Below are positions 18,768 through 31,763 of a stretch of 40,508 nt of DNA, piece by piece. Position numbers and translations under genes: made by a program. Below the pieces are notes generated by a model. That model saw only the letters and a program-made list of their open reading frames with translations. It was not told the origin of the DNA and did no database searches. Within the stretch, counting starts at the first letter, position 1. Every line of letters begins with the position of its first letter. Source of the DNA: a virus; the IMG/VR virus record IMGVR_UViG_3300010370_000077, positions 1 through 40,508 of that record; one strand, written 5' to 3'.

Positions 18768-19043
18768 TCACCATTTGGTGCGATCCGCCCAGTAAGCGGC
18801 CGACATCTTTCCTTTCTTGATGTTAGCCGCGTGCCTTGCTTTGAACGCCTCGCGGCGTTTACGGTCGGCTTCCGATTCCCCAGTGCGTTTGGGGGAGCCG
18901 GAAACGCCTTGTTGGCCGAAGCGGATAAGTTTTACTTTATCGCCTTCTTTTGCCAAGACTGCGTGTGACTTATCGGGGTGATTAGGGGTGCGTTTTGGTT
19001 TGTTGTAGCCGGCAAATTTTTCGCCGCGGTATTCAATCGTCAT
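18768..19043 (-). CDS. Small basic conserved phage protein, unknown function
   Basis: I place the start at ATG 19043, giving 91 residues from MTIEYRGEKFAGYNKPKRTP. A longer frame upstream only mirrors the preceding gene. Motifs KLIRFGQQGVSGSPKR and RREAFKARHAANIKKGKMSA followed by YWADRTKW recur in small phage proteins encoded next to portal or head genes. It has a pI well above 9 and may bind DNA or an acidic virion surface (inference). It overlaps the preceding gene by 11 bases and precedes the portal start by four. Confidence 0.85.
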   Translation of the reverse strand: MTIEYRGEKFAGYNKPKRTPNHPDKSHAVLAKEGDKVKLIRFGQQGVSGSPKRTGESEADRKRREAFKARHAANIKKGKMSAAYWADRTKW

Positions 19044-19233
19044 CGTCGTCCTCCTCGTCTTCGGGGTCGGCGATTGGTACCAGGATTTCGATACCGTTGG
19101 CAAGCATCGTGATGAAGCCACCGAGAGTTTCGGGTTTGGAGGGCGTTTTGAACACGAACGTGGCGTGCGTGGTGCCCTCCTCCCCGTCAATCTCGATGTG
19201 GATACAGCCGCCAGTGACGGTTTGGATCGTCAT
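19033..19233 (-). CDS. Small acidic protein, unknown function
   Basis: A 66-residue protein, MTIQTVTGGCIHIEIDGEEG, with a C-terminal run of Asp and Glu (EDEEDDDDD). It overlaps the stop of the second tail-tube paralogue by one base (TGATG at 19233) and overlaps the next gene by 11 bases. The acidic tail next to a strongly basic partner gene suggests that the two small proteins might pair; that is speculation. No family recognised. Confidence 0.75.
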   Translation of the reverse strand: MTIQTVTGGCIHIEIDGEEGTTHATFVFKTPSKPETLGGFITMLANGIEILVPIADPEDEEDDDDD

Positions 19234-19649
19234 CAGATGGCTGCAGTGATCGCGCCAGAGGTGATGAAGTTGCAGGTGATGACCTCCAGTTCGCCCACCG
19301 TGGCGGAGGTGTCCATGCTGGTGATGATGCCCGAGAAGCTGATCTTTTTGCCGCCGGTGGTATCCAAATACAGCTCGAAGGCGGCGTTGGCGTTGTCCTC
19401 GGTGGTAAGGACGTCCTGCAGGAAGGCTGCGGTTTCGTCGGCGCTGGATGCCGTGTACATCAGTTCGACGGTGCCGCTGCCGGAAATCAGGCCGCCAACG
19501 AACTCGCGGCTGGTGGAGCCGTGGTCGGTGACGTCCAGCGTGTCCTTGTTGATGGTCAGGGACCAGCTGCGGGTGGATGCCAGGGCGACTGCGGTGCTGC
19601 CGTCATTTTCGAATTTGACGGAGCCTTCCTCGCCACGAAAGAAAGCCAT
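19233..19649 (-). CDS. Tail tube protein paralogue 2
   Basis: A 138-residue protein, MAFFRGEEGSVKF, then STRSWSLTINKDTLDVTDHG, FVGGLISGSGTVELMY, FELYLDTTGGKKISFSG and GELEVITCNFITSGAITAAI. The TINKDTLDVTD..STSREFV...GSG pattern is that of siphophage major tail (tube) proteins. It aligns without gaps to the upstream paralogue with about 96 of 138 identities counted by eye. One copy may build the tube and the other a specialised ring, or they may alternate; this is inference. A CATAGACTGG element precedes its start by about 30 bases. Confidence 0.85.
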   Translation of the reverse strand: MAFFRGEEGSVKFENDGSTAVALASTRSWSLTINKDTLDVTDHGSTSREFVGGLISGSGTVELMYTASSADETAAFLQDVLTTEDNANAAFELYLDTTGGKKISFSGIITSMDTSATVGELEVITCNFITSGAITAAI

Positions 19650-19704
19650 GACTGGAGCAGGGATAACCTTTGCTCCAGTCTATGGCCTAGTTGTTGGGTT
19701 TTTA

Positions 19705-20121
19705 TCAGATAGAGGCGGTGATAGCGCCGCTACTAATGAAGTTGATGGTGATAACTTCCAGTTCGCCGACCGTGGCGCTGTAGTCGGCACTTGTGATGAT
19801 CCCGGTGAAGGTGATCTTTTTGGTGCCGCTAGTGTCCAAATACAGCTCGAATTGAGCGTCGGTTTGGTCGCGGGTGGTAAGAACGTCGTCGATGAAGTTC
19901 AGAGTTTCGCCAGCGCCGGGGGCGGTGTACATGACCTCGGCGCTGCCGCTGCCGGACAGCAGGCTGCCGATAAATTCACGGCTGGTCGAACCTTGATCGG
20001 TTACGTCCAGGGTGTCTTTGTTGATGGTGAAGCTCCAGCTGCGGGTGGACGACACCGCGGCGACGGCGCCACTGCTGTCCTTGAAGCTGATGGAGCCCTC
20101 CTCGCCGCGATAAAAAGCCAC
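19705..20121 (-). CDS. Tail tube protein paralogue 1
   Basis: A 138-residue protein with the same length and layout as the next gene: MAFYRGEEGSISF, STRSWSFTINKDTLDVTDQG, FIGSLLSGSGSAEVMY and GELEVITINFISSGAITASI. It is probably the major tail tube subunit. It lies between the large terminase and the portal, far from the tail terminator and chaperone genes where a tube gene normally sits, and no tube gene is found there. Its upstream spacer is 30 bases. Both copies have intact motifs, so neither looks like a decaying pseudogene. Confidence 0.85.
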   Translation of the reverse strand: MAFYRGEEGSISFKDSSGAVAAVSSTRSWSFTINKDTLDVTDQGSTSREFIGSLLSGSGSAEVMYTAPGAGETLNFIDDVLTTRDQTDAQFELYLDTSGTKKITFTGIITSADYSATVGELEVITINFISSGAITASI

Positions 20122-21078: not shown

Positions 21079-22329
21079 TTAGTACAGGCGATAAGAGGTT
21101 GTTCCAAGGACACCGTGTTTGGCGAGGTTGAATTGTTGTAGGCATAAATACCCGAAAGCGTCGAAGGCGTGGTCGACGCCTAGGTTTTTGTTGGGAAGGC
21201 CGCTTCCGGGCGTGTAAGTCAAAGTGCGGAGGGATTTGATCAGTTCTTTGCAGCGTGGGTGGATGAGGGTGCGACGTGTTCCAGTGGCATCGAGGAGGGC
21301 GGTGTTCACGGCGGTGATTTTGTCGCGGATTTTCCAGGGGGCTTTGGGGCTGGAGACGTTAAAGCCGTTGCGGCGCAAGATGTTGTGGTCGGTTAGACCC
21401 ACGCCGCTGGTTTTGCGGGCGCCGCCTGTGGGGTCCGGGCAGGCGATGACGCGGCGATCCACGCCGAAACGGCGGGTTACTTCTTCGGCAAAATCCCAGG
21501 TGGTGGCGCCACCAGTCAGCATTATTTCGTCGAAGACGTAGAGGGTGTCGTCTTTGCGGACCGCGCAGATGCCAGACATTGGGTCGACGTTGAAGTCCAC
21601 TCCAAGCAGGAGGGGGAGGACGGAAATGTCGGCGGATTCGGTGGAAATGTTGGCGTCGCTAAAGGAGACGGCGACGAGACCGCTGAGATTCTCGAAGCTC
21701 GCCTCGAATTCTTGGCGGAAGGTGCGGGCGTCGAGTTGGCTGCGGGCGGCTTCGATTTCTTCCGGGGGGACGTTGTCGCCGTCGATCGTCGTGAATTGCC
21801 ATCTGCTCCAGTCGGAGTCGCCGCTTTCGGCGTATTGCCAGAGTTCGTAGAACCAGCTGGCTGTGCCGTCGGGCGTGGAGATGAATAATGCCCAGCCTTG
21901 TTTGTCGGCCAGGGCGGGTCGGATGACTTCGAACCAGACGTCGGCAGACATGAAGGCGGCTTCGTCCATCACCACGCCAGCCAGGCTGCGGCCGCGGAGG
22001 GCCATGGCGTTTTCGGTGCCTTTTAGTTCGATCGTGCTGCCGTTGACGAGTTCCAACTTGAGGTCGGTTTCGTTTTTGCTCTTGATCCAGGCTTTGGGGA
22101 CTAGCTTTTTTAGGACTTTCCAGGCGATGTCCTTGGCCATGCGGTAGGTGGGGGCCGCGTAGAAAAAGGTTTCGCCCGGGCGTTCGATTGCTCCACGCAG
22201 GAGTTCGATGCAGGAGAGGTAGCTTTTGCCGAAACGGCGGCCGGCGACAAGCACTCTGAAACGTTTGCGGCTGTTGAAGACTTGGCCTTGGGCGTATCGG
22301 AGGGTTAGTGCGCCAGCCTCGGTGGGCAT
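21079..22329 (-). CDS. terL: Terminase large subunit
   Basis: A 416-residue DNA packaging motor. Walker A is GRRFGKS at residues 30-36 and Walker B is VVMDEA with the acidic pair at 122-123. The coupling motif is LFISTPDG at about 152-159. The C-terminal RNase H-like nuclease starts with LLGVDFNVDPMSG (about 243-255), has an EIMLTGG segment, and ends with GVDHAFDAFGYL (catalytic Asp near 393-396). All expected catalytic residues are present. It would cut and translocate concatemeric DNA into the prohead at the portal. The gene is separated from terS by about 680 bases holding two tiny genes, which is unusual. A TACTACA element abuts its ATG. Confidence 0.97.
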   Translation of the reverse strand: MPTEAGALTLRYAQGQVFNSRKRFRVLVAGRRFGKSYLSCIELLRGAIERPGETFFYAAPTYRMAKDIAWKVLKKLVPKAWIKSKNETDLKLELVNGSTIELKGTENAMALRGRSLAGVVMDEAAFMSADVWFEVIRPALADKQGWALFISTPDGTASWFYELWQYAESGDSDWSRWQFTTIDGDNVPPEEIEAARSQLDARTFRQEFEASFENLSGLVAVSFSDANISTESADISVLPLLLGVDFNVDPMSGICAVRKDDTLYVFDEIMLTGGATTWDFAEEVTRRFGVDRRVIACPDPTGGARKTSGVGLTDHNILRRNGFNVSSPKAPWKIRDKITAVNTALLDATGTRRTLIHPRCKELIKSLRTLTYTPGSGLPNKNLGVDHAFDAFGYLCLQQFNLAKHGVLGTTSYRLY

Positions 22330-24985: not shown

Positions 24986-25171
24986 ATGGCAACACCAACC
25001 ACGGCCGTTATGGTCACCCTCGCGCCAGAGCACTGGCTGCGGATTGAACGGGCCCTACATGGCGCCGCCGCTCACCTATACCGCACCGGCGACACCGTAG
25101 AGGCCAAACGGTTCCAGCACACCCGCCAGCTGATCCAGCACGTTACCGATGGATGGGAGGCTGAGGCGTGA
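24986..25171 (+). CDS. Small unknown protein, first gene of short rightward operon
   Basis: A 61-residue protein, MATPTTAVMVTLAPEHWLRI, ERALHGAAAHLYRTGDTVEA, then KRFQHTRQLIQHVTDGWEAE. Predicted two-helix protein. It overlaps the next gene by four bases (GTGA), so both are translated together. Its upstream region is shared with the leftward operon. No family recognised. Confidence 0.72.
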   Translation: MATPTTAVMVTLAPEHWLRIERALHGAAAHLYRTGDTVEAKRFQHTRQLIQHVTDGWEAEA

Positions 25172-25590
25172 GCGGCGGAGACTGGAACACCCGGAAGGAG
25201 CGATCAGCGCTCCAGCGCGACACCCGCGAGCTTGAGCGGGAACAGATCCGACTTGAGAAACGCCAGCTGCGCGATCTCCGCTGGGCGATCGAGCGCAGCA
25301 CCGTTAAGGCGACCGATTGGGCAGACTTGCTCACGCTCCAGCAGCGACACGGCAAGGAAGGCCCGCTCCAGCTATGGCGGGAACTGGTGCCGTACTGGCG
25401 AGACTGCCAGCGGGTCAACCGCGGCGCTGACATACCCGCGGAGCTTTTTCCACAGATTGCGGGGCTTTTTACGCGCACCGATGATCAGCCGCCAGCACCA
25501 GCCACTAGGCGCAAGCCCGCTAAGGGTGCCAGCCGTAAGACCCGCTCAGATGCTGGCAAGGCCCGCAAATGCACCAGCGCCCCAGTCTGA
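25168..25590 (+). CDS. Unknown charged coiled-coil protein
   Basis: A 140-residue protein starting at GTG 25168, coupled to the preceding stop by GTGA. Residues 10-50 are an Arg/Glu/Leu-rich coiled coil (LQRDTRELEREQIRLEKRQL). Next comes YWRDCQRVNRGADIPAELFP, then a lysine- and arginine-rich C-terminal tail (TRRKPAKGASRKTRSDAGKA) that could bind DNA. It is followed by the iteron region and a convergent nuclease gene. No family recognised. Confidence 0.72.
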   Translation: MSGGDWNTRKERSALQRDTRELEREQIRLEKRQLRDLRWAIERSTVKATDWADLLTLQQRHGKEGPLQLWRELVPYWRDCQRVNRGADIPAELFPQIAGLFTRTDDQPPAPATRRKPAKGASRKTRSDAGKARKCTSAPV

Positions 25591-25778
25591 TACCCCAGCC
25601 CTCACCCTCCTGCGGTGGGGGCCCTTCCTGTCCCATGGGTGAGACTCACGAGACTTACCCCGAGACACCCATAGCACCAGTCCCCTAGGGCAGCGGCCCC
25701 ACGCCTAAGGTGCTCCAGCTGAATTCCTACAGAGAGCAGGCCATGAATGGCTTTTTAGAGCCAGCCATGAATGGGTTT
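25591..25778. promoter_or_regulatory. Non-coding convergent intergenic stretch
   Basis: This 188-base stretch has no supported gene. It contains a perfect palindrome GTGAGACTCAC (25639-25649), two more GAGAC copies 10-11 bases apart, one GCTCCAG heptamer at 25712 and the first two ATGAATGG iterons. No T-rich terminator hairpin was found between the convergent genes. Confidence 0.6.
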
Positions 25779-25853
25779 TCAGGCCGAGGTATGAATGGCG
25801 TTTTCGAGGGCCTTTAGGCCCGAGAAGTACAGCTCCACCCGAGTCATGAATGA
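25743..25853. repeat. ATGAATGG iterons with 24-base period
   Basis: ATGAATGG(C/G)NTTTT starts at 25743, 25767 and 25791, exactly 24 bases apart, and a variant ATGAATGACTTTTC starts at 25846. Two further ATGAATGG octamers occur at 26000 and 26133, all on the + strand. The array covers the 3' end of the nuclease gene and the spacer beyond it. Confidence 0.8.
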
Positions 25854-26618
25854 CTTTTCAGCGTCCTCCAGCTGGTCGCGGGTCATGTGGTGGACGTTGG
25901 GGGTGCCACAGCGTCGCGCCAGCACAATGGCGGCGCCGGTGGGTTGGAGGCCGGTGAGGTGCTTTAGTCCCAGCGAGTAGGCGCCGCACTGGTCGATGTA
26001 TGAATGGCCGGTTGGTAATCTGTCCTCGGCGTCGGTTTTGCGTCCCACGCTGGTTTTCCAGTCTGCCAGCACCAGCTCGTTATTTTTCATGCCTACTAGG
26101 GCGTCGCAGGTTCCAGCGAAGCCGGCGGGGTGATGAATGGAAAATTCGCTGGCGAAAATTTCGGTGACGTGCTCGGAGATCCAGTCGGAGAGGCCGCGGG
26201 CATAGCCTGAGGCGCTCCAGCCAACGCGGGGAACATTTGGCCTCACCCGTTGGAGAGCCCACTGTGTGATCTTGGGCGGGATACGCGCCAGCCCTTGATC
26301 GTCCCAGCGAATGGCGTTGCGCTTGTTTGCAGTAGAACGCGCCAGCTGTTGGGCGGTCTTGAGGAGGTATTCAGCTTGTGAATGGGCCATGTTGCCGCGG
26401 GTGGCGGCGATGTTGCGCTGACAACTGGCCTCCACTGGTCCCAGGCGGGCTTCCCAACGCTCCAGGCCGGTTTTGTCGCTTGTTTCCTTCAGGATGTGTG
26501 TAACACTATGGTAGGTATTGCCTCTGATGTCCCGGTAGACCCTGAATGGGCCGGTGTCGTCTCGCTCCAGCCTCCATTTCCTGAGTTCTGCCAGGGTGTC
26601 TTGGGTGTTGGAGGCCAT
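25779..26618 (-). CDS. PD-(D/E)XK exonuclease (RecB/Cas4-like)
   Basis: A 279-residue protein. The nuclease core is visible at about residues 165-225: HHPAGFAGTCDALVGM (metal Asp), ELVLADWKTSVG (the D..K motif) and YIDQCGAYSLGLKH (conserved Gln-Tyr). The N-terminal half, YHSVTHILKETSDKTGLERWEAR followed by NIAATRGNMAHSQAEYLL, has the HxxxE helix of phage exonucleases. It probably resects or recycles DNA during recombination-dependent replication. It is co-directional with the ssDNA-binding gene upstream, and the terminator between them means partial readthrough or its own promoter. The pairing suggests an exonuclease/SSB recombination module. Confidence 0.87.
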   Translation of the reverse strand: MASNTQDTLAELRKWRLERDDTGPFRVYRDIRGNTYHSVTHILKETSDKTGLERWEARLGPVEASCQRNIAATRGNMAHSQAEYLLKTAQQLARSTANKRNAIRWDDQGLARIPPKITQWALQRVRPNVPRVGWSASGYARGLSDWISEHVTEIFASEFSIHHPAGFAGTCDALVGMKNNELVLADWKTSVGRKTDAEDRLPTGHSYIDQCGAYSLGLKHLTGLQPTGAAIVLARRCGTPNVHHMTRDQLEDAEKSFMTRVELYFSGLKALENAIHTSA

Positions 26619-31376: not shown

Positions 31377-31763
31377 ATGAACATGCACATTCTTTCTGAC
31401 CAGCAGTTCCAGACGATTACTACCGCCCTGGAGCAAGCCTTCGTTGCTATCAACGCTGCCCAGCACGTTGAAATTGACCTGACCACTTCCAAGCAAATTG
31501 CCCCAGCCGCTAAGGCAGAAAAGGCGGTAGCCAAGCCGAAGTCTCAAAGTAAGACTCGTAAGTCCAGCCGCAAGGCGAGGGCGGCGCTGACGGAGAAGAA
31601 GGTGCTGGAGATCAAGCGCCAGCTGCAGGCTGGTGGCAAGTCGGTGGCCAAGATTGCCCGGGAGTTTGGGGTGCATAGCACCACCATCAACTGCATTAAG
31701 TGGGGCAAGACCTGGAAGCATGTGACGCTCCAGCAGGACAAGGCCGCGACCGTGGTGGGCTGA
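31377..31763 (+). CDS. Small DNA-binding protein with C-terminal helix-turn-helix
   Basis: A 128-residue protein. The N-terminal 40 residues are helical (LSDQQFQTITTALEQAFVAI). Residues 45-70 are a lysine/serine/alanine-rich linker. Residues about 72-118 form a helix-turn-helix (LTEKKVLEIKRQLQAGGKSV, then AKIAREFGVHSTTINCIKWG and KTWKHV) of the type found at the C-terminus of HNH homing endonucleases and in small phage regulators. The second HTH protein at 32708 has the same layout. Its own upstream TGTACTACA element could be its target (inference). Confidence 0.82.
   Translation: MNMHILSDQQFQTITTALEQAFVAINAAQHVEIDLTTSKQIAPAAKAEKAVAKPKSQSKTRKSSRKARAALTEKKVLEIKRQLQAGGKSVAKIAREFGVHSTTINCIKWGKTWKHVTLQQDKAATVVG

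Follow-up and report, generated by a model that had tools for sequence, protein, structure and literature searches.

What is the role of a cluster of short repeats, all facing the same way, at the 3′ end of a phage nuclease gene? The question is raised by IMG/VR virus record IMGVR_UViG_3300010370_000077, a partial record of an uncultured siphovirus-like phage, whose 40,508 bases were analysed as a whole and are called the window below. The array has replication genes on one side and terminase genes on the other. To our knowledge, the replication origins and packaging sites of many uncultured marine and freshwater picocyanobacterial phages are essentially unknown. The reading that we prefer, with a confidence just short of an even chance, is that the repeats may bind an initiator and mark a replication origin of fixed polarity.

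The octamer ATGAATGG begins at positions 25743, 25767, 25791, 26000 and 26133, with a variant at 25846, every one on the + strand and exactly where the initial annotation had placed it. The five exact copies are the only ones in the window, all inside 25743-26140 and on this strand alone, while shuffled sequences held 0.87 on average and 0 of 100 reached five; such shuffles, made for the window and for its relatives, rule out a chance origin of the repeats. On the nuclease-coding strand the octamer reads CCATTCAT and is preceded by an A-rich sequence. Tandem Repeats Finder (TRF) delimits a 24-base array at 25733-25808 with 3.2 copies and a match of 73%. The 24-base step covers three copies only, however, and the subsequent gaps measure 55, 154 and 133 bases. 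The array crosses the TGA stop codon of the nuclease gene (25779-25781), with one copy wholly in the spacer, one over the stop and the rest within the open reading frame (ORF), where they occupy more than one reading frame. Because copies lie on both sides of the stop and in several frames, no repeated peptide accounts for the array, an explanation that had been named as its possible undoing and that can be ruled out. Judged from the relatives described below, the array is a polar, DNA-level repeat of the protein-binding type and not a coding repeat. For the octamer at 26000, selection on the coding sequence looked strong by raw codon use and was unexceptional against other conserved Ser and His columns; the octamer at 26133 is probably incidental.

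Relatives of the nuclease are encoded in 274 IMG/VR stretches, of which 80 were fetched, and more were added by DNA-pattern scans. Our main counts refer to 88 dereplicated IMG/VR relatives and the 250 bases past the nuclease stop. In this region CCATTCA is present in 81 of the 88, with 230 forward copies and a single reverse one (shuffled mean 1.2), and the commonest 8-mer is CCATTCAT, found in 72 of them. The first 80 relatives had 289 copies in the nuclease 3′ regions as against only 3 reverse copies in 630 kb, and in the window as in its relatives the motif is confined to one region of the genome and not dispersed. The number of copies per locus ranges from 0 to 7 in 57 different spacing patterns across the 88 loci; the spacing histogram is broad and shows no clear helical phase. 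The search in related genomes that had been advised thus recovered the motif together with its polarity but not the exact 24-base period, which had been taken as the hallmark of the array. The period is real for three copies in the window and is one variant among many, not the conserved feature. Since motif, polarity and clustering persist while spacing, copy number and flanks change, the proposal that these are protein-binding iterons of some kind is well supported.

The consensus AAAnnGCCATTCA(T) is identical in the G+C-rich clade of the window, in its low-G+C relatives, in G005 and in the carriers G001, G003 and G004, phages of 27-64% G+C. The motif is carried by a small number of unrelated viruses besides its related carriers, which number well over a hundred. 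G001, G003 and G004 should be taken as one or two lineages in addition to that of the window, because the terL proteins of G001 and G003 are 86% alike over 394 residues and all three have a winged-helix gene in common. The array was not found in the cultured phages S-2L, S-H1, KBS-S-2A, MED4-184 and MED4-117, and blastn with an array as the query gave short spurious matches only. A genome scan with the paired motif produced 25 scattered matches, none of them cyanobacterial, and so offered nothing to suggest a host-derived repeat.

Wherever both are visible, the polarity of the array equals the direction of terL, including loci whose neighbouring genes all run the opposite way. In the clade of the window the repeats follow the nuclease gene in the sense direction, while in L084, L086, L088, a group of 30% G+C and G005 they lie between genes transcribed against the array and still keep to the terL strand. 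Orientation therefore follows the genome and not local transcription, which speaks against a function at the RNA level or in the manner of a stoperator and for a directional process on DNA, either replication or packaging.

We infer protein binding, origin function and a direction of replication as follows. The asymmetric sites AAAnnGCCATTCAT on the strand of the nuclease and terminase genes would be bound by a sequence-specific DNA-binding protein, and several copies in the same orientation would load this initiator. It would then open the duplex, whereupon the PrimPol-helicase and polymerase A could start a fork of fixed polarity, either unidirectional or by rolling circle. Several relatives have an A+T-rich tract in the appropriate place. 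At eight loci (L083, L084, L086, L088, L142, L148, L154 and L195) the contig reaches its highest A+T content over 80 bases (5-12% G+C in contigs of 28-37%) at most 150 bases from an array. The global G+C minimum of G004 (55 kb) is located 161 bases from the array, and that of G003, an 11-kb fragment, 301 bases away, with its three lowest windows all within ~300 bases. All these loci are partly non-independent and represent perhaps three or four lineages. A small winged-helix protein is encoded directly before the array in G001, G003 and G004, with the repeats setting in at the stop codon of its gene, and the layout in G003 and G004 can be read, by analogy, as an initiator followed by iterons and an unwinding region. 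The core of the winged-helix model has a predicted local distance difference test score (pLDDT) near 90 or above, and one of the structures that it matches is the DnaD N-domain (Z 7.2, root-mean-square deviation 5.8, 92 residues). An O-like protein of KBS-S-2A aligns over the same domain (E 0.059, not significant alone). The conserved, polar motif itself and the SSB-like, exonuclease and PrimPol genes that adjoin the array also favour an origin, as do the separate repeats that the cultured cyanophages KBS-S-2A and MED4-184 have at the corresponding map position.

Several observations weigh against this reading. No A+T-rich tract lies near the array in the window, where the lowest local 80-base window has 49% G+C, or in the other full G+C-rich clade genomes. 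Copy number (0-7) and spacing vary freely, as they do not in classical iterons. For the winged-helix protein of G001, G003 and G004 no homologue was found in the clade of the window, where no initiator gene was identified; a search for further relatives returned nothing but the same record, and in structure the protein matches winged helices of a generic kind. A helix-turn-helix (HTH) protein at 31377-31763 that is conserved in the window clade is an initiator candidate only. Nor does the array coincide with a GC-skew switch or a cumulative minimum, for which the initial annotation had suggested looking. Along the window and the other genomes of the clade, the sign of the skew stays the same whichever way a gene runs; this is what one-way replication would give, and it rules out a bidirectional origin of the sort that skew would reveal. 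The replication origin that had seemed plausible from the window remains our first choice, with the support coming mainly from the A+T tract and the winged-helix gene of relatives and not from the window.

The same fixed polarity might instead serve packaging. The array would then be a pac site, or the terminase-binding part of a cos site, with TerS binding the repeats, terL cutting nearby and packaging proceeding one way. This is the chief rival of the origin, and we regard it as rather unlikely. In its favour, the polarity agrees with the direction of terL even where the neighbouring genes run opposite, and direct repeats mark the pac sites of phages 9g and SPP1 (PMC5567051, PMC4737164). Second arrays of 5-24 copies begin at or just past the TerS stop codon in L009, L050, L058, L093, L125, L134 and L186, a gap of 350-550 bases separates TerS from the array that follows it in L094, L103, L112, L138, L156 and L163, and in G001 and G004 a small terminase of phrog_6299 precedes it by ~700 bases. 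In most members, however, the window included, TerS is ~2.3-3 kb from the array, which directly follows the nuclease gene, and the A+T-rich tract beside the array of low-G+C relatives is left unexplained. Contig ends near the array or the SSB gene share no single position and show no trace of a cut; their scatter is an assembly effect, and ends near the SSB gene were dismissed as physical genome ends. Origin and packaging could also be coupled in one region.

A transcriptional or regulatory array at the boundary of early and late genes, at which an oriented repressor-like protein blocks RNA polymerase in the manner of a stoperator, would suit the position where the SSB-nuclease operon ends, in many genomes directly past the stop codon and in sense, as well as the small HTH proteins often encoded beside the array. 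The loci named above whose arrays oppose local transcription do not fit, and known stoperators are found genome-wide (PMC9283540) while these arrays occur in one region only, so that such a function seems improbable to us. Slightly less credit is due to the idea that the repeats, with the word AAAAGCCATTCAT, are single-strand template or priming sites of the phage PrimPol itself and need no separate initiator, in the style of NrS-1 polymerase, which requires an 8-base template word (PMC8718748, PMC7102993). Strict strand polarity combined with free spacing would suit a signal on a single-stranded template, and the CCATTCAT strand is C-rich, as expected of the template for leading synthesis. 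The array motif is, however, unlike TTTGGTTA and GTGG, and G001 (86 kb) and G004 have arrays but no PriCT_2 match, although these records may be incomplete. Least probable is an element in the nuclease 3′ untranslated region acting as RNA, with sites for an RNA-binding protein or a small RNA. Clade A copies do lie in sense past the nuclease stop and are separated here and there by hairpins, but the array is antisense to its flanking genes in low-G+C relatives and G005, hairpin enrichment is mild (8% versus 5% in shuffles) and there is no Rfam match. Arm-type sites of an attP were discarded since no PF00589 tyrosine integrase was present in the window or in 7 of 8 other carriers, and a parS partition site since no PF13614 ParA-type ATPase was matched in 9 records. 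One full relative does encode a tyrosine integrase (PF00589; G023:C1:2587-3060), and part of the clade may thus be temperate.

Whichever process is concerned, well over a hundred metagenomic genomes contain a site of constant polarity that sequence alone suffices to identify, so that the start and direction of replication or packaging become directly testable. That unrelated phages share the word also raises the question of its reader. A more daring suggestion, which we consider doubtful, is that AAAnnGCCATTCA(T) might be a common start signal, for replication or for coupled replication and packaging, across otherwise unrelated picocyanobacterial phages, a freely spaced cluster unlike classical iterons and perhaps read by a host protein or by an often-exchanged phage protein.

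Some relatives carry further repeats. In L134:3311-3455 the cluster past the TerS-like gene has grown into a microsatellite of the (ATGA)n type, in which CATTCAT recurs at intervals of 4 bases; in L192:9661-9744 the copies of a cluster ~1.7 kb past the TerS-like gene follow one another in 9-base steps, as though strand slippage had produced them. In relatives of ~40% G+C the coding region of the nuclease itself holds a further array, with 4-5 copies (L095:5560-6055; also L126, L132, L136, L150, L164 and L123). In L009:5780-6000, L058:9670-9850 and L050:8216-8400 the second array is followed, in the interval from TerS to terL, by palindromic repeats rich in GTAC (GTACTA, TAGTAC), possibly another packaging or regulatory site. 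G004 has a long non-coding region beside its array (L233:9650-10600) with about eight repeat units of ~62 bases (AACATTTAAGAT...GTTAGTTAATC).

The surroundings of the array in the window are listed in the table below. They agree with the convergent arrangement beside replication genes that had been described, with the nuclease and SSB-like genes on the − strand, p140 on the + strand and the PrimPol-helicase nearby; a DNA polymerase A gene is also present, farther from the array than the latter. The model of p156 has a pLDDT of 74.7 and resembles solved small terminases only weakly. The spacer contains a second conserved word, TGAGTCTC(A), which often opens a small membrane-protein-like ORF, which is decayed in the window. 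Elsewhere in the window, the genes at 19233-19649 and 19705-20121 are neighbouring paralogues that form a 472-base tandem repeat of 75% identity (19233-20121), and GCTGGAGC, with 24 copies on the − strand and 5 on the + strand, is a polar octamer that perhaps reflects codon use or is perhaps Chi-like.

Table. Array copies and neighbouring features in the window (strand − is the coding strand of the nuclease gene)
Feature	Position	Strand	Remarks
Repeat copy 3, nuclease sense AAAAAGCCATTCAT	25743..25756	-	Spacer past the stop codon; kept in relatives as AAAnnGCCATTCAT
Repeat copy 2 GAAAACCCATTCAT	25767..25780	-	Overlaps nuclease TGA stop, 25779-25781
Repeat copy 1 AAAACGCCATTCAT	25791..25804	-	Within last nuclease codons; many relatives have a copy at this place, ~19 bases ahead of the stop
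Variant copy GAAAAGTCATTCAT	25846..25859	-	Within the nuclease gene
Octamer CCATTCAT, candidate array member	26000..26007	-	In conserved GHSY codons; present in 65/87 aligned nuclease genes
Octamer CCATTCAT	26133..26140	-	In SIH codons of a conserved peptide; kept in 24/98 relatives only
Possible degenerate fourth 24-base unit	25719..25742	-	16/24 bases as in the next unit, by eye
TGAGTCTCA element beyond the array	25640..25648	-	TGAGTCTC in 49/88 dereplicated relatives
Non-coding spacer between convergent 3′ ends of p140 and nuclease genes	25591..25778	.	From sequence and ORF positions
PD-(D/E)XK exonuclease, 279 aa	25779..26618	-	PF12705 E 9.5e-08; phrog_298 exonuclease E 5.4e-26
SSB-like gene, 193 aa	26697..27278	-	phrog_1607 E 6.9e-06
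PrimPol-PriCT_2-AAA_25 primase-helicase, 803 aa	27424..29835	+	Profile matches
p140, convergent gene	25168..25590	+	70-73% conserved in G023 and G024; unrelated small HTH proteins take its place in other lineages
p156, TerS-like, HTH and long helix	23009..23479	-	Just upstream of terL; from position and homologues
terL	21079..22329	-	PF03237, phrog_2; same strand as CCATTCAT polarity

The hosts of these phages are probably picocyanobacteria, as their protein similarities suggest. In the window protein encoded at 18768-19190, a stretch of 94 residues is 81% identical to a protein of Synechococcus phage S-H1, related proteins also being found in Roseobacter and Vibrio phages, and the window terL resembles that of cyanophage S-2L, among others. 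The terL of G003 is closest to those of phages of Synechococcus WH7803 and Prochlorococcus MED4. None of 50,697 phage records matched the 22-34 kb stretch of the window closely.

Among known systems, the array is reminiscent of iteron origins such as lambda ori within gene O and those of plasmids RK2, F and R6K, in which several short repeats of one direction also lie beside replication genes. The adjacent A+T-rich tract of low-G+C relatives and of G003 and G004 adds to the likeness, as does the winged-helix gene directly before the array in G001, G003 and G004. Classical iterons, such as those of iteron plasmids, require a precise number and spacing (PMC10797057), whereas neither is fixed here; the motif is common to phages of very different G+C content, and the clade of the window has neither the A+T tract nor a known initiator gene. 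KBS-S-2A and MED4-184 have repeats of their own that map to the corresponding position, upstream of terL. Unlike the array, these sit inside O-like or replication initiation genes (CPKG_00028 and CPAG_00031), the presumed initiators, and differ from it in sequence (CCCCAAAAGG; AAACTAAA). In KBS-S-2A, CCCCAAAAGG recurs in 24-base steps within CPKG_00028 (L243:16640-16790), and these copies look like that phage's own origin repeats.

The pac sites of 9g, with two 21-bp direct repeats upstream of a terminase gene (PMC5567051), and of SPP1, with three sets of direct repeats (PMC4737164), are likewise polar and upstream of the terminase genes, but consist of few and longer repeats, while the array is made of numerous short ones and usually lies 2-3 kb from TerS. 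The NrS-1 polymerase site TTTGGTTA is also a short strand-specific word in a PrimPol siphovirus; it occurs there as two single copies of another sequence and not as a cluster, and some array carriers are without PrimPol. With the stoperators of cluster A mycobacteriophages the array has in common an asymmetric word of similar length that keeps to one orientation in small intergenic gaps. Stoperators are dispersed over the genome, whereas the array occupies one region and is oriented independently of local transcription.
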